DNA from: Thauera sp.
GTDB taxonomy: Bacteria; Pseudomonadota; Gammaproteobacteria; Burkholderiales; Rhodocyclaceae
Direction: 5' to 3'
NCBI GenBank assembly: GCA_017302295.1
Contig: JAFLDS010000006.1
Coordinates: 62,001 to 126,000, forward strand
DNA length: 64,000 nucleotides
Below, in pieces: positions 15,869 through 21,954 of this stretch. A program made the position numbers and the translations under genes. Below the pieces are notes generated by a model that was given only the letters and a program-made list of their open reading frames with translations, was not told the DNA's origin and made no database searches. Every line of letters starts with the position of its first letter. Positions within the stretch are counted from its first letter, which is position 1.

Positions 15869-15895
15869 CCGGCACGTCGTCCCGCGCATCAAAGC

Positions 15896-15925
15896 AATCG
15901 GGGCGCCCCTTGGGGCGCCCCGATT
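15896..15925. terminator. Strong bidirectional hairpin, ancestral erpA / M23 gene terminator
   Basis: A stem of up to 14 bp (AATCGGGGCGCCCC and its complement) with a very short loop lies between the M23 gene and the left copy of the erpA 3' end. Before the integrative element inserted, it would have stood just downstream of erpA. Confidence 0.8.
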
Positions 15926-15947
15926 TCATTCCACGCTGCCGTCGGAC

Positions 15948-16024
15948 TCAGACAGAGAAGGACGAACCACAGCCGCAGGTGCTGGTGGCGTTAGGATTGC
16001 GAATCACGAACTGCGAGCCTTCCA
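15948..16024 (-). pseudogene. attL: detached duplicate of the erpA 3' end
   Basis: These 77 bp are identical to 21604-21680 and cover the codons from about residue 92 of ErpA to the stop, including the Cys108-Gly-Cys110 cluster ligands. No start or upstream coding sequence is attached, so this is a gene remnant and the left attachment site. The strand exchange point lies somewhere in the 77 bp. Confidence 0.93.
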
Positions 16025-16080
16025 AAATAAAGCTTGTTGCTCAATACCTTAGCAGTCTTAACAAATCGTGAGTCCTCGAC

Positions 16081-16099
16081 TTGTGCAACCTTTGTGCAA
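16081..16099. promoter_or_regulatory. Left pair of TTGTGCAA arm-type integrase sites
   Basis: TTGTGCAA occurs at 16081-16088 and 16092-16099, one helical turn (11 bp) apart, between attL and the integrase start. The same octamer is found four times near the right end. The second copy runs into the integrase ribosome-binding site AAGGAG (16098-16103), so bound integrase could repress its own expression. Confidence 0.65.
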
Positions 16100-16112
16100 G
16101 GAGAAGACAAAA

Positions 16113-17132
16113 ATGGCATCCATCACACGACGCGGCGATAAGTGGCTTGTCCGCGTTACCCGAGGCTCGCAGCAGGCGAACAAGACCTTCCCCACGAAAC
16201 AAGAGGCACAGCTTTTTGCACAAGAAACAGAGGCGGCCTTCACCCGAGGGACTTACACACCTGAGGAGAAAGCCACGCTACGGGAACTCCTCGAACGCTA
16301 CAGGACGGACATCACCTCGACCAAGCGCGGACGCCTACGCGAGGAGTATCGAATCGACGGCATCCTCCGCCACAAAGAAGCAAAACCACTCCTCGATACA
16401 CCGATCAGCAAACTGTCCCCCGTCGCCGTCGGCAAGTGGAGAGACGCCCGCGGCAAAGAAGTAGCCCCCGCCACTGTCGTACGGGAATGGGCCATCCTCC
16501 AAAACGCCTTGAGCGTCGCCGGGCGTGAATGGGGCTACGTCGTCACGCGCAACCCGTTCGAGGCACTGCGAAAACCGACGATCAACAACGCGCGAGCGAG
16601 GCGCGTGTCCGATGCCGAACTCGACGCCATCCTCGCCGCCGTCCGGTCGCCGGAGTTCAAAGCAATCGTGAAGCTGGCAATCGAGACCGCTGCAAGAAGG
16701 TCCGAACTCCTCAGCCTTCGTTGGCAGGACATCAGCCTGGACAAGCGGGTAGCGACGCTGAGGCAAACGAAAAATGGCGAGGTCCGCGCCGTCCCCCTGT
16801 CGAGCAGAGCAATCGCAATCCTCAAGGCACAGCCGAGGCGAATCGACGGCGCAGTTTTCGGGATGAAGCCTCACAGCCTCACAACCGCTTTCGAGCGCGC
16901 CGTCCTCCGCGCGCGCCGGAGTTACGAGGAGACGACCAAGACCGAAAGCCGGGAGCCCGGATTCCTCGAAGACCTCCGCCTCCACGACCTCCGCCACGAA
17001 GCGTGCTCGCGCCTCGCCGAACTCGGGCTATCGACAACCGAACTCGCCAGCATCAGCGGCCACAGAACGCTGCAGCTCGTCGCCAGATACACGCACCACC
17101 GGCCCGAGCAGCTGGCCCGGAAGCTAGGCTAG
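16113..17132 (+). CDS. int: Tyrosine recombinase (element integrase)
   Basis: This 339-residue phage-type integrase has an Arm-type DNA-binding N-terminus (SITRRGDKWLVRVTRGSQ), a SAM-like core-binding region (about 60-155) and a catalytic domain. Catalytic residues can be read as Arg195 (ARRSELLSLRW), His291 and Arg294 (HDLRHEACSRL), His317 (SGHRTLQLVARY) and the nucleophile Tyr326. The ATG at 16113 has AAGGAG 9 bp upstream, and the longer reading from 16068 has no such site. It is transcribed away from attL and would drive insertion into and excision from erpA. It is followed by its own terminator. Confidence 0.95.
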   Translation: MASITRRGDKWLVRVTRGSQQANKTFPTKQEAQLFAQETEAAFTRGTYTPEEKATLRELLERYRTDITSTKRGRLREEYRIDGILRHKEAKPLLDTPISKLSPVAVGKWRDARGKEVAPATVVREWAILQNALSVAGREWGYVVTRNPFEALRKPTINNARARRVSDAELDAILAAVRSPEFKAIVKLAIETAARRSELLSLRWQDISLDKRVATLRQTKNGEVRAVPLSSRAIAILKAQPRRIDGAVFGMKPHSLTTAFERAVLRARRSYEETTKTESREPGFLEDLRLHDLRHEACSRLAELGLSTTELASISGHRTLQLVARYTHHRPEQLARKLG

Positions 17133-17150
17133 CCCCCGCCCCAGAAAGCG

Positions 17151-17177
17151 AAGAGCCCGGACGAACCGGGCTCTTTT
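17151..17177 (+). terminator. Terminator after the integrase gene
   Basis: A 10-bp stem around GAGCCCGG/CCGGGCTC with a 5-nt loop ends in TTTT followed by an A/T-rich stretch. It isolates integrase expression from the replication genes. Confidence 0.85.
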
Positions 17178-17208
17178 CAATTTATTCATAGCGCATTCGC
17201 ACGGGCGC

Positions 17209-17267
17209 TTGATTCGCTCGTGCGATTATGGTATAAGCTGTCCTTATGCATAGAATTTCTCTATGCA
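17209..17267 (+). promoter_or_regulatory. Promoter with inverted repeat for the element's replication operon
   Basis: TTGATT (17209-17214) and TATAAG (17232-17237) are spaced by 17 bp, a good sigma-70 promoter. Just beyond the expected transcription start lies TGCATAG-N7-CTATGCA (17247-17267), placed as an operator or leader hairpin. It would drive the two small genes and the primase-helicase. Confidence 0.7.
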
Positions 17268-17288
17268 CCCATTCAAGGACTTTATTTT

Positions 17289-17501
17289 ATGCAACTCCAC
17301 ATCGGCTATCACAACTTGTCCAACGCTCTCGACGGATGGCGCACCGCCCCCGAACTACGGGCACTAGACAGCCGGAATCGACTCGGGCTTTCACGTCACT
17401 GGCACGAAGGACAACGCGCCTTCCACGCCGCTGAGGTAGCACAACTTCGAGCCCGTATCGCCGCCAACGATCCCACACTTCCGAAGGAACGCCAACGATG
17501 A
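17289..17501 (+). CDS. Small basic protein of the element (unknown)
   Basis: This 70-residue protein is charged and mostly helical (WRTAPELRALDSRNRLGLSRHWHEGQRAFHAAEVAQLRARI), compatible with a small DNA-binding or regulatory protein, but I do not recognise its family. The ATG at 17289 has AAGGA about 9 bp upstream. An in-frame start at 17220 would overlap the promoter. It is the first gene after the promoter at 17209, and its stop overlaps the next start by 4 bp (ATGA). The position suits an early regulator or excisionase-like function (inference only). Confidence 0.65.
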   Translation: MQLHIGYHNLSNALDGWRTAPELRALDSRNRLGLSRHWHEGQRAFHAAEVAQLRARIAANDPTLPKERQR

Positions 17502-17755
17502 CAAGCAAAACACATTACAGCGCATTCCTTGCGCACCTCAAGGAACACGGCTCCGCCACTTCAGCCGAACTAGCGGACAAGTTCAACGCAATGCAGCCTC
17601 CAGGCACGATTAGAAACCTCCGGGCGAATGGTCACGACATCCGCACCGTTTGGACCCTGACTGCAGACGAGGATGGCGTCCTGCACCGCTGCGCCCGGTA
17701 CCACTACCACGGGCGCCGCTACGCCGAAGGCGAACAAACAAAGAAGCTGAACTAA
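17498..17755 (+). CDS. Small winged-helix-like protein of the element
   Basis: This 85-residue protein has an N-terminal helix-turn-helix pattern (HLKEHGSATSAELADKFNAMQPPGTIRNLRANGHDI) followed by a short beta region rich in His and Tyr. The shape resembles the small phage helix-turn-helix proteins whose core reads as a helix pair followed by LR..G..I.T. It is translationally coupled to the preceding gene and lies 66 bp before the primase gene. A role in controlling replication or transcription of the element is likely but unproven. Confidence 0.7.
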   Translation: MTSKTHYSAFLAHLKEHGSATSAELADKFNAMQPPGTIRNLRANGHDIRTVWTLTADEDGVLHRCARYHYHGRRYAEGEQTKKLN

Positions 17756-17770
17756 CAGCAGAGAAGCAAA

Positions 17771-17792
17771 AGCCCGGACGGCCATCCGGGCT
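17771..17792. terminator. Hairpin between small genes and primase
   Basis: The 8-bp stem AGCCCGGA/TCCGGGCT with a 6-nt loop lies 30 bp before the primase start. There is no T tract on the plus strand, so it may act as an attenuator. The same AGCCCGG/CCGGGCT stem recurs after the integrase (17151-17177) and after the primase (20571-20589). Confidence 0.4.
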
Positions 17793-17821
17793 CAACCAAC
17801 CTCACACAAGGATTCTACCCA

Positions 17822-20530
17822 ATGAGCCCCACCGAAGCAATCCAGCCCACTCGCCCCGAATGGGCGGAGCGAACTGACGCCCTCATCAGCGAAATGTTCG
17901 CGGAGTCAGTCTCATACGTCGAGCGAGCCGGACGCCTAACCGTCATCACCTCGACCCGACCAACGACGCAGGGAAAACGCCTCCGCAAGGGAAACGGCGG
18001 CTCGATCATCAAGGAACAACCGGACAACCTCCTCGAAGGCCACGCGCGCTTGCGGTTCTTCGAGACACCGGAGGATGTCGCCGACATTCTCGTCAGCCTG
18101 ACCGACGCCGACGCCCTCAGCCCACAGGTTCCGCGAACCGAGGCGCACCCCGTTCGCCTCAAGACGATCAAGGCGTCGCAGTCCGACGCCTGGGCACACA
18201 CCCGAAGCGCCGCCCACTTCCACGCCCACAACGGGCGGTCCGTCCTCGTCATCGACTTCGACCCAGCGGAAGGCGGCGACGTGGGCAAGGAAGCACTCTA
18301 CGCCGCCGTCCTCGATGCAGCCCCCGGCCTCAAGGACGCGGGTTGTGTGTGGTGGGCTTCCTCCTCGTCCTTCGTCTTCGACGGAGAGCGGCAGGTTACC
18401 GGGCTCAAGGGACAACGGTTGTACTTCCTGACCGAGGACGGCACCGATACGGAACGCGTCCTCAAGGCCATCAACAAGCGCGCTTGGCTCGCCGGACGCG
18501 GCCGGGTTGAAGTGTCGGCAGCCGGCAGCCTCCTCGTGCGCGGCCTCGCAGATGAAGCGATGGCAACCGCAGCGCGACTCGACTACATCGGCGGCAGCGT
18601 CTGCGAGCCTCCGCTATCCCAACGCCGCCCCCGCCCTGAGGTGCTCTGTTCAGGCGGGTTCGTCGATACCCGGGTCGCCGTCCCCGACCTCAGTCGGGAG
18701 GAGGAAGTCGAATATCAGCGCCTTCTCGCGGAGGCGAAGCGCGACCGCGCCCCCGAGGCGGAGCGCATCAGGGCGGAGCGCGCCGCCACGCGGGAGGGGG
18801 AGCAGGTACGCGCCCTGACCTCGTCCGGCATACCCGACCAGGAAGCGCAGCATCGGGCAAAAGCGACCACCGCCTCGCTGAACGTGGGCGAGTTGTGCGG
18901 CGACTTCACGATCATCCTCGCCCACGGCGAGCGCGTAACCGTCGCCGACCTCCTCGCCGACAAGGAGCGATTCGACGGCGAGGCGTGCCGCGATCCGGTC
19001 GAGCCGGAATACTGCGGCGGCAAGGTTGTCGCTCACATCAACCTGAGCGGACGCGAGCCGAACATCTACAGCCACGCCCACGGCGGCAAGCGGTACGCCC
19101 TCGTCGAGCATCCGTCCGAGGCGGCGCGCAAGTCCGCCGACATCGGACTAGAGCCCGGCGCCCTCACGTTCGAGGGGGAGCGCGGCAAGCGGCGCACGCT
19201 CGAAGCCTCGCACGCTGCAACGAAGATCGCGGCAGCCCTCCAACACCGTTACGGGTACAAGGCGGCCGATGATCTTTGGTACGAGTGGCAGGGTTCGCAC
19301 TGGGCGGCGGACGGCAGATCACAGCGCATCGCCCGCGCCGTGCATACTGCGCTCGAAGTGGGGTTCGCGCCTTGCGGCTTCTCCGCCTCGACCGCCGACG
19401 GCATCCTCCGCCTGTTGCAATCGGGCGGACGCCTCGACCTCGCGCTCGCAGACGGAGCGCACTTCCTACCATTCAGGAACGGCCTCCTCGACCTGAGGAC
19501 AAGGACGCTCGCGCCGCACAACCCCGCCGCCGGCCTCGACTGGTGCCTCGCCCACGACTTCGACCCCGAGGCGGATTGTCCGACCATCAAGACTTGGTTG
19601 AAGGGTGCGCTTCGAGGCGATGAGGCGTTGGTCGAGTTTGTCCGCGCCGCCGCCGCCGCTGTTCTCACGGGACGGTATGACCTGCAAAAATTCGTGTATC
19701 TCCGGGGACGAGCGGGAACGGGCAAAGGAACCTTTCTGCGCCTCCTCACTGCGATGATGGGCTCCGGTAACGTACATTCAACCAGCCTCGCAGCCCTGGA
19801 AAAGGACCAGTTCGAGACCGCAGCAATCCAAGGCAAGCGGCTCGTCATCATCGCCGACGCATCAAGGCACGGCGGCAGCGTCGAAACCCTCCTAAACCTC
19901 ACAGGCGGCGACCCGGTTCGCCTCCGCAGGATGCACAAAGAGGCGTCCTCGTTCGTGTTCAAAGGGGTTGTCGTCGTCGCATCGAACGACGAACTCGTAA
20001 CGAACAACCCTTCGAGCGCACTGCAGCGGCGTCGCCTGAATGTTCCTTTCGAGCGGGTAGCGACCGAGGCGGAAAAAATGGAATGGGCTCGACGAGGTGG
20101 CGAGGAGGTGGTTCTACATTCGGAACTTCCCGGCCTCGTGAATTGGCTACTCGCCCTCGACGCCGATGAAGTGGCGAGCGCGCTACGCAATCCCCCGGCT
20201 GCCGTGCGGGAGGCGAACGACACGGCGGAAGAGGCGAACAACCACCTCGCCCGATGGATGAAGGCGCGTTGTGCCCCTGCCCCTGCCCACGTCACGGCCT
20301 GGGGGAAAGCGACCGACCCCTCAGCAGACAGTCTCTACTCATCCTTCATTCACTTCTGCCAGGGGGAGCGCGTTAATCCGTTCGCCCTCAACCGGTTCAA
20401 GGATTTGGTCCGGGAGACGGCCGGCACCCTGGGATGGGAGGTGAGCGTCGGCCCGCTGGACCGAGAGCGCAGCGGCCGCTATGGCGTGCGCGGCCTCAGG
20501 CTGTTGGAGGTGGGCGAGCGGGAAGACTAA
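17822..20530 (+). CDS. Primase-helicase (P4 alpha / D5-like) of the element
   Basis: This 902-residue replication protein appears to have an N-terminal primase-like half with an acidic pair in VLVIDFDPAEGG (Asp145 and Asp147), and a C-terminal superfamily 3 helicase. The helicase shows Walker A GRAGTGKGTF (Lys635), a Walker B-like VIIADASRHGG near residue 680, and a sensor region VVVASNDELVTNN. A D5-type C-terminal domain (SSFIHFCQGERVNPFALNRFKDLV) follows. Such proteins initiate at, unwind and prime an iteron-type origin of satellites and plasmids. A roughly 340-bp iteron array begins 77 bp downstream, a natural origin for it. It is the only large gene besides the integrase. Confidence 0.88.
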   Translation: MSPTEAIQPTRPEWAERTDALISEMFAESVSYVERAGRLTVITSTRPTTQGKRLRKGNGGSIIKEQPDNLLEGHARLRFFETPEDVADILVSLTDADALSPQVPRTEAHPVRLKTIKASQSDAWAHTRSAAHFHAHNGRSVLVIDFDPAEGGDVGKEALYAAVLDAAPGLKDAGCVWWASSSSFVFDGERQVTGLKGQRLYFLTEDGTDTERVLKAINKRAWLAGRGRVEVSAAGSLLVRGLADEAMATAARLDYIGGSVCEPPLSQRRPRPEVLCSGGFVDTRVAVPDLSREEEVEYQRLLAEAKRDRAPEAERIRAERAATREGEQVRALTSSGIPDQEAQHRAKATTASLNVGELCGDFTIILAHGERVTVADLLADKERFDGEACRDPVEPEYCGGKVVAHINLSGREPNIYSHAHGGKRYALVEHPSEAARKSADIGLEPGALTFEGERGKRRTLEASHAATKIAAALQHRYGYKAADDLWYEWQGSHWAADGRSQRIARAVHTALEVGFAPCGFSASTADGILRLLQSGGRLDLALADGAHFLPFRNGLLDLRTRTLAPHNPAAGLDWCLAHDFDPEADCPTIKTWLKGALRGDEALVEFVRAAAAAVLTGRYDLQKFVYLRGRAGTGKGTFLRLLTAMMGSGNVHSTSLAALEKDQFETAAIQGKRLVIIADASRHGGSVETLLNLTGGDPVRLRRMHKEASSFVFKGVVVVASNDELVTNNPSSALQRRRLNVPFERVATEAEKMEWARRGGEEVVLHSELPGLVNWLLALDADEVASALRNPPAAVREANDTAEEANNHLARWMKARCAPAPAHVTAWGKATDPSADSLYSSFIHFCQGERVNPFALNRFKDLVRETAGTLGWEVSVGPLDRERSGRYGVRGLRLLEVGERED

Positions 20531-20570
20531 CGCCGCGCCTCGCCGCGACGCCTCGACAGCCTCAACCTTC

Positions 20571-20589
20571 AGCCCGGCCCGTCCGGGCT
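20571..20589 (+). terminator. Possible terminator after primase-helicase
   Basis: The 7-bp stem AGCCCGG/CCGGGCT with a 5-nt loop is followed by GGGTTGTTTCT. It is weak because the T tract is short and offset. Confidence 0.4.
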
Positions 20590-20621
20590 GGGTTGTTTCT
20601 GCGAGGTGATGAAGTTTCGGA

Positions 20622-20665
20622 GAAGTTTCCCCGGGATGAAGAAGTTCCGGGGAAACTTCTTCATC
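20622..20665. repeat. Two overlapping, mutually exclusive perfect hairpins
   Basis: GAAGTTTCCCCGG at 20622-20634 pairs perfectly with 20647-20659 (13 bp). GATGAAGAAGTT at 20635-20646 pairs perfectly with 20654-20665 (12 bp). The two right arms overlap, so only one can form at a time. The second contains iteron-like sequence. Confidence 0.8.
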
Positions 20666-20700
20666 GCCTCAAACCCAGCAACGGCGCGGGTTCCAGCCGA
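20666..20700 (+). repeat. 35-bp direct repeat, copy A
   Basis: It matches 20855-20889 with a single mismatch (G in place of A near its centre), is 189 bp from copy B, and is followed by the tandem iterons. Confidence 0.85.
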
Positions 20701-20854
20701 ACGATGAAGTTGATGAAGTTGATGAAGTGATAAGTTTGGAAAAAATCTGAGCGAGCGCGCACCGCTGCCCCCGCCCTTCCGAGGTTGTCTGTCGGAACGG
20801 GTGGATTGATTTTTTGGAGTAACTAGAAAAATACTTCATCAACTTCATCAAACA

Positions 20855-20889
20855 GCCTCAAACCCAGCAACGGCACGGGTTCCAGCCGA
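20855..20889 (+). repeat. 35-bp direct repeat, copy B
   Basis: This is the second copy of the repeat at 20666-20700. It follows the two inverted iterons at 20833-20849 and runs into the iteron at 20888. Confidence 0.85.
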
Positions 20890-20945
20890 TGAAGTCCTCT
20901 CCGCAAGACTTCATCACGACTTCATCACTTCATCACGACTTCATC

Positions 20946-21487
20946 GCCTCGACACCTCATCACCTCGACAGCGGCAGCAGAGCGCGCCGCCGACCAACGC
21001 CGCAGACGCCCCCACTTTTTCTAGGGCCACGACCACGCCTCCGCCCCCGCCCCCGATCAACACCCGGCACCACCGGCGAAACTTGTGTGCGCACGCACGA
21101 GGGGGGGGGCGAGGAATGTTGCTCCAACCTCAACAGCCAGGAGCGCCCCTGCCCCTTCGTTTTAGCGGGATTGGACTTTGGGACTATTTTTCCTCTTGTG
21201 AAATTACATCTCATTCCGCGAAATCCGGCACTACACCCGCGCTTTTTCCTGACGGACGAGAATACATACAACTTTTCTCGTTTATAAACACCACTTATCC
21301 ATTAATAATCAAGCTACTAGACAACTCCGCACGCCGTTTTCTAGTAGATAAAAACGCTTGCGTTTCACATCAGCAACTTGAGCGAGACGGCACGGGAGCT
21401 AAACGTCCTGAAGCCTTGGGAGGTTGTGGAAGGCGAGGCGGAAGCACCGGAGACAGGCGCAACACCTTGAATGACATCCGCACAACT
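20946..21487. other. Non-coding right part of the element
   Basis: No convincing gene is present. The first 150 bp are pyrimidine-rich and end in a run of nine G (21101-21109). From about 21165 the composition becomes markedly AT-rich. Inverted repeats are CTACTAGA/TCTAGTAG (21314-21321 with 21340-21347) and AAACGC-TT-GCGTTT (21352-21365). Open frames across this stretch have no protein-like character and overlap the repeats. Confidence 0.6.
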
Positions 21488-21529
21488 TTGTGCAACGGTT
21501 GTGCAAGTTGTGCAAGAATCCTTGCACAA
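21488..21529. promoter_or_regulatory. Right cluster of TTGTGCAA arm-type integrase sites
   Basis: There are three direct copies of TTGTGCAA (21488-21495, 21499-21506, 21508-21515) and one inverted copy (21522-21529). The octamer matches the pair near the left end. All lie within 120 bp of the right attachment site, as arm sites of tyrosine integrases do. Confidence 0.7.
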
Positions 21530-21541
21530 GTCGGGACCACG

Positions 21542-21580
21542 AAAGAAAAACGGGCTAGCTAGTTTCATAGCTAACCCGTT
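21542..21580 (-). terminator. Element-supplied terminator for restored erpA
   Basis: On the minus strand, AACGGGTTAGCT and AGCTAGCCCGTT pair (11 of 12 bp) around an 8-nt loop and are followed by a T-rich run, 24 bp after the erpA stop. It lies inside the element and takes the place of the native hairpin now stranded at 15896-15925. Confidence 0.75.
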
Positions 21581-21603
21581 GTTTTCTAACCTTTTCTATC
21601 AGA

Positions 21604-21680
21604 TCAGACAGAGAAGGACGAACCACAGCCGCAGGTGCTGGTGGCGTTAGGATTGCGAATCACGAACTGCGAGCCTTCCA
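21604..21680 (-). repeat. attR: 77-bp direct repeat within erpA
   Basis: Every base matches 15948-16024. To the right of 21680 the sequence is continuous erpA, while to the left of 21604 it is element sequence. Confidence 0.93.
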
Positions 21681-21954
21681 GGCCTTCGGAGTAATCGATC
21701 TCGGCACCAAGCAGGTACTGGTAGCTCATCGGGTCGATGAGCAGAGTCACACCATTCTTCTCGTAAGCCGTATCGTCCTCATTCACTTCCTCGTCGAAAG
21801 TGAAGCCGTACTGGAAGCCGGAGCAGCCACCGCCGGACACGAACACACGAAGTTTCAGACCGGGATTGCCTTCCTCTTCGATCAACTCGCGAACCTTGTT
21901 CGCGGCGCTATCGGTAAAGACGAGAATTTCGGGGGTTTCAGCAACAGCGTTCAT
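21604..21954 (-). CDS. erpA: Iron-sulfur cluster insertion protein ErpA (3' end restored by the element)
   Basis: This is a 116-residue A-type Fe-S carrier that delivers clusters to apoproteins. The three cluster ligands are Cys44 (GGGCSG), Cys108 and Cys110 (STCGCGSSF). Length and sequence are normal, so the protein should be functional. The last 77 bp (about residue 92 to stop) also occur at 15948-16024. They form the right attachment site, and the present C-terminus may partly derive from the element. The gene follows argC by 92 bp on the same strand. Confidence 0.96.

Follow-up and report, generated by a model that had tools for sequence, protein, structure and literature searches.

The locus described here lies in a 64,000-nucleotide stretch of a Thauera sp. 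genome (contig JAFLDS010000006.1, positions 62,001 to 126,000), which we refer to as the window, and comprises a putative integrative element at the 3′ end of erpA. This gene encodes an A-type iron-sulfur (Fe-S) carrier and is essential in Escherichia coli. Two direct repeats of 77 bp, 100% identical to each other, enclose 5,579 bp (15948–16024 and 21604–21680, both read on the minus strand as erpA is). On the erpA strand, the repeat consists of 2 nt, 24 sense codons and the TGA stop, and identity between the copies stops at the first base past that stop. The copy at 21604–21680 completes erpA (21604–21954, minus strand), an intact open reading frame (ORF) of 116 amino acids (aa) that matches the ErpA equivalog NF010147 (E 4.5e-59), and the displaced copy at 15948–16024 adjoins the native erpA terminator. 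A perfect repeat of this kind, with ErpA left whole, is the arrangement expected of an integrative element at a protein-gene 3′ end. The longest of the other repeat families within 14.5–23.5 kb measure only 35–40 nt, and no tRNA gene was found within the 64-kb window.

The gene next to the displaced copy (16113–17132, plus strand) begins 88 bp inward of it and encodes a 339-aa tyrosine integrase (PF00589, Phage_integrase, E 1.3e-25). Its residues R195, K220, H291, R294, H317 and Y326, which we take to be the catalytic set, are invariant across the integrase and five relatives. A 902-aa P4-type primase/superfamily 3 (SF3) helicase (17822–20530, plus strand) was recognised from D5_N and DUF5906, with TIGR01613 above its cut-off. 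For its helicase part, the DNA primase 7ola was found as a solved structural match (E 8.6e-11). Between these two genes are a 70-aa ORF with no family match in Pfam, PHROGs or NCBIfam (17289–17501, plus strand) and an 85-aa winged helix-turn-helix (HTH) protein (17498–17755, plus strand; HTH_39, E 9.3e-13). Repeat comparison and domain searches confirmed an earlier, sequence-only reading of this DNA, which had described two identical 77-bp erpA 3′ ends around an integrase, a primase-helicase and two small genes. Terminator-like hairpins follow the integrase gene (17150–17176, plus strand; fold score and terminator scan) and the primase gene (20568–20592, plus strand; terminator scan, with a fold z-score of only −1.8). 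No gene was recognised in the last 1.1 kb of the element, in which two ORFs were scanned. The final 443 bp of the element have a GC content of 46.7%, compared to 61.5% for the whole element and 67.2% for the window outside it. Two Rfam matches were both under the gathering score and were not used.

Empty sites and insertion at erpA

We joined the flanks of the element through one repeat copy and aligned the product to 27 erpA loci from the same genus. At 21 of these loci, a single alignment began at the M23 gene (or no more than 35 bp from where the query starts), crossed the erpA end and continued on the argC side. In three others (G011, G018 and G025) the M23-gene and erpA matches were 135–166 bp apart, with the M23 gene adjoining erpA, giving an empty, uninterrupted site at no fewer than 24 of the 27 loci. 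Empty sites in close relatives had been anticipated in the sequence-only reading, and the contrary arrangement that it had named, the same 5.7 kb without a duplication, was not seen among the 27 loci. Because identical 77-bp repeats surround 5,579 bp and relatives have empty sites, the locus is a precise site-specific insertion that has left erpA intact. The genome is a 53-contig draft, and in principle the repeats could have arisen without site-specific integration, through misassembly or a duplication caused by homologous recombination. We consider this extremely improbable: the empty sites of relatives match one repeat copy exactly in its place, and the integrase gene starts just inside the distal copy (88 bp), the layout also found in the guaA element described below. 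The element is real and compact, and is probably mobile.

The other three loci varied. In G022, erpA and the M23 gene are on separate contigs (a contig break). In G028, erpA is ~80 bp from the M23 gene, and a piece of erpA/argC is repeated; this locus was rejected as a second erpA insertion as the repeat sits at an assembly gap. In G014, erpA and the M23 gene are ~2.4 kb apart; this locus was also rejected, as an unrelated gene is located there, without a second erpA match or an integrase match. The 726-aa ORF at this position (L185:2472-4652) reads, by eye, like a TonB-dependent receptor. Apart from the gap-associated repeat of G028, no second copy of the erpA end was found in the other genomes of the genus; G009 had no erpA match.

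The arrangement suggests how the element would be inserted. A tyrosine integrase would recombine an attachment site (attP) carrying the 77-bp erpA terminus with the identical chromosomal sequence, and after insertion the original end of erpA would lie, with its terminator, at the opposite edge of the element. The host would keep a full-length erpA, since insertion would join the 5′ part of the gene to the element end, and the element would furnish a new terminator past the rebuilt stop. The integrase probably binds repeats of TTGTGCAA inside both ends. The excised circle, with a predicted size of 5,656 bp and one att copy, would probably replicate from an array of GATGAAGT using its own primase-helicase. 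We infer the position of the crossover, as well as excision, replication and transfer. Overall, it is very likely that this is a compact integrative element whose tyrosine integrase acts at the erpA 3′ end, with erpA rebuilt, a terminator of its own, and predicted arm sites and origin.

It had also been proposed that the element must carry the erpA codons exactly, which is not supported. The end of the protein must stay, yet the DNA differs at 2–16 of the 77 positions among the 27 genus relatives, mainly at third codon positions, and the last residue is also altered in some. Compared to the five closest relatives, the 77 bp have 2, 2, 2, 3 and 5 differences, and the remaining erpA has 14, 15, 15, 18 and 18 per 274 positions. 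Based on its low number of differences, the repeat looks like this lineage’s own allele of erpA. Identity of the two copies is not demanded by the protein, and would fit a most recent use of the att site in this lineage or one close to it.

Terminators, end repeats and a candidate origin

All five closest relatives have a GC-rich hairpin after the erpA stop, as the sequence-only reading had anticipated, and its counterpart in the window (15891–15930; inverted repeat, fold z −4.8) is the native terminator region, now cut off from the gene and next to the distal copy. The element brings a terminator of its own 23 nt past the stop of the rebuilt erpA (21549–21580, minus strand), with a 13-pair stem, a T-rich tail and a z-score of −5.4; the opposite strand of this hairpin folds at z −4.2. 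This new terminator, the end repeats and the origin-like array described below are additions to the sequence-only reading. A terminator scan produced 12 sites in the region versus 6.9 expected, and its pattern alone is weak. The case for the element-borne terminator is therefore based on stem length, place and fold score, not on the scan pattern.

There are eight copies of TTGTGCAA in the 64 kb, versus a mean of 1.1 and a maximum of 4 in 100 shuffled sequences. Two are at the left end of the element (positions 16081 and 16092; 16081–16099, plus strand) and four at the right end (21488, 21499, 21508 and 21522; 21488–21529, three on the plus and one on the minus strand), and a pair at 11-bp spacing is present at both ends. 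The best octamer common to both 150-bp end zones had 6 occurrences, compared to no more than 3 in 2000 shuffles and no more than 4 in 1,955 real segment pairs. The result was less clear-cut in a more permissive 7-mer test, in which 12 of 1000 Markov shuffles gave 6 or more. Based on these statistics, the TTGTGCAA repeats are probably arm-type integrase sites, which they resemble. When the paired end motif was sought in a genome contig collection, there were 9 matches, none with a proteobacterial title, and by our estimate ~7 would be expected by chance.

An array at 20608–20945 has 11 of the 17 copies of GATGAAGT in the whole window, in both orientations, and includes perfect inverted arms of 19 nt (20710–20728 and 20833–20851). 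The best octamer count for the array was 11, compared to no more than 3 in 1000 shuffles and no more than 4 in 1,490 real segments. Located beside the P4-type primase-helicase, this array is a plausible candidate origin. A direct repeat of 35 nt (97%) brackets its inner part (20666–20700 and 20855–20889).

These features also bear on whether the element is a phage satellite, which would integrate in the same way and spread through helper-phage packaging. As in P4/SaPI-type phage satellites, as we know them, there is a P4-family primase-helicase (model above cut-off) and an iteron-like array with a putative origin role, in addition to an integrase and a small regulator. The nearest solved relative of the helicase part, 7ola, is presumably the primase of a staphylococcal satellite. 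The element differs from such satellites in having no packaging, capsid or helper-interaction gene recognised among the scanned ORFs, although unrecognised ones are possible. In addition, no phage or plasmid sequence matched its primase across 80% of the length, and all matches in those collections were at less than 60% identity. No kin of the primase was found in 249 other genomes of the order at 1e-60, or in viral contigs. We regard a satellite as unlikely, albeit deserving of consideration. That the element is stranded, no longer mobile and retained as harmless is quite improbable: it is a single instance with no recognised excisionase or transfer gene, but its integrase and primase frames are open, the catalytic residues are present and its repeats are identical.

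Integrase relatives and elements at guaA

Relatives of the integrase were present in 73 of 300 genomes of the order at E ≤ 1e-30 and in 8 of 297 genomes of the family at 1e-60 (own genome counted in each). Two integrase kin were found in viral contigs, at 35% identity, and none in the genome contig collection. Plasmids had 2,527 records, with 33–40% identity among the 20 listed. ARAGORN identified a tRNA gene at 7 of 29 integrase-relative loci. In a tree of 38 integrases, the bootstrap of which was not fully settled, the erpA integrase was a lone long branch and two integrases from guaA loci paired with 100/100 support. Nine integrases labelled as tRNA-associated (seven by ARAGORN, two by eye from repeats) required 6 changes on this tree.

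The two guaA loci are similar to the erpA locus in several ways. In each, a related integrase (46% and 44% identity) is beside a displaced gene-end copy. In G641, from the same family, guaA has been rebuilt by an element (L201) with 106-bp repeats of the guaA 3′ end located 9.9 kb apart, and the integrase is beside the distal copy. This element also has a match to the winged HTH protein of the window and a Prim-Pol gene. In G012, from the same genus (L202/L230), the integrase is beside a guaA-end remnant and the complete guaA end is on another contig. Both genomes have a hairpin terminator behind the complete guaA stop, as the erpA element has behind its rebuilt stop, and the two guaA hairpins, each with a T run, are nearly identical. 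The hairpin is inside the element in G641; the G012 element is not delimited, so an inside position is only presumed for it. The guaA elements differ from the erpA element in their target, and that of G641 in its size (~9.9 kb), its other cargo and its primase, which is of another type (no match to the window primase at 1e-5). The genome with the erpA element also has an integrase-like frame just after guaA (G000:C1, L238:1421-2716; E 9.5e-14); a search of 39.8 kb at that locus for a 16-bp repeat of the guaA end was negative.

A replacement hairpin is thus found in the erpA element and in both guaA elements examined, with near identity of the guaA hairpins across two genera. This suggests that the elements furnish the whole gene end, not the codons alone. 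We tentatively propose, as a possibility somewhat short of even, that elements rebuilding protein-gene 3′ ends carry a complete gene-end cassette, made up of the codons, the stop and, a few to ~30 nt past it, a new terminator. If so, such elements would control both the 3′ untranslated region of the host gene and the point where its transcription ends, and could tune its expression. By eye, no similar hairpin was seen close behind guaA in the genome with the erpA element or in G001 and G006.

Further searches and comparison with known systems

Searches for a second erpA-targeted element found none in samples of the genus (27 genomes), the order (398) and the phylum (397, partly shared with the order sample), or in 5,374 E. 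coli genomes. In the order sample (399 genomes including the own one, with the last 38 aa of ErpA as query), 395 genomes matched. The check by position covered the 45 others in this sample with three or more ErpA-end matches. Among the matches listed for these 45, same-contig neighbours were near-complete, being either ~340–440 bp apart (tandem paralogues) or far apart, and short matches occurred only in G432 (contig ends) and G158. In G432, erpA is split across two contig ends (L187:3-200 and L188:2-322), each with part of its 3′ half. The phylum sample (398 genomes including the own one) had 375 genomes with matches at 1e-7. In the 51 other phylum genomes with two matches these were near-complete, and no same-contig pair was closer than ~68 kb. 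The erpA 3′ end was found in 5,374 of 5,426 E. coli genomes, at exactly one place in each; in three of these that place is on a record classed as a plasmid. The idea of a site-specific family at erpA thus holds for the site-specific element at the erpA 3′ end with its gene whole, and does not extend to a family, as more than one erpA element with a related integrase was not found in the genomes sampled.

Several observations weigh against the element as proposed above. There is only one instance of the erpA element, no integrase relative above 49% identity other than its own was found in the 300 order and 297 family genomes, and none of the 29 integrase-relative loci, with up to 1.5 kb of flank, had an ErpA match beside the integrase. 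Excisionase, relaxase and packaging genes were unrecognised among the scanned ORFs in Pfam, PHROGs and NCBIfam. One TTGTGCAA is within the integrase gene (16216) and one is outside the element (50603). When guaA element L201 was scanned in the same way, no octamer occurred more than once at each end, so an arm-site reading is not supported in that element. The AT content between the inner iteron arms is just 50%. The point on replacement terminators is weakened by G013, which has a similar guaA hairpin, yet no integrase match in 19.9 kb.

The sequence-only reading had taken insertion at a protein gene to be less common than at a tRNA gene. This runs counter to a survey of island sites, which gives 43.4% protein-coding sequences, 33.8% tRNA/tmRNA genes and 22.8% intergenic sites (PMC12424338). 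Likewise, PMC5704250 describes 3′ ends of housekeeping genes as usual sites of integrative mobilizable elements (IMEs), with guaA, rplL, rpmE, rpmG, rpsI, trmE and yicC as 3′-end targets, a repeat containing the gene end that keeps the target intact, and some IMEs without a relaxase. The erpA element resembles the IMEs at rplL, rpmE, rpmG, rpsI, trmE and yicC in its small size class, single tyrosine integrase and gene-end direct repeat (PMC5704250). It differs from them in that no relaxase was recognised among the given ORFs (Pfam, PHROGs, NCBIfam) and in its target, as the main text of that source has neither the word “erpA” nor “terminator”. GIsul2 and other guaA-targeted islands are also similar in having a tyrosine integrase at the 3′ end of a housekeeping gene that stays intact (PMC9376610, PMC5704250). 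Unlike the erpA element, GIsul2 targets guaA, carries replication and transfer-related genes, and has had its excision and integration at guaA shown by experiment (PMC9376610).

No report of integration at erpA was found in the main-text passages searched. Provisionally, erpA is a new target of an already known mechanism, and it can be added to the protein-gene ends used as attachment sites. The relatives of this compact integrase are located at guaA or tRNA ends, which makes it possible to test for a change of target within a single group of integrases; the integrase might also serve as a tool directed at erpA sites. The chromosomal site (attB) lies in coding DNA whose third codon positions vary from species to species, so synonymous drift may restrict the host range, in contrast to elements at tRNA genes.

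No phage matched the 77 bp. The plasmid collection gave four matches at 75–77%, of which two were annotated as erpA and two were unannotated in 2.1-Mb Neisseria records. At least 120 viral contigs had the ErpA C-terminal pattern, none of them with an integrase-like frame as judged by a model made from these integrases. The best match reached the N-terminal part in 114 and was partial in 6. Many ErpA-like genes were observed on viral contigs (L066, L082, L083, L085 and others), several with a second related gene directly adjacent.

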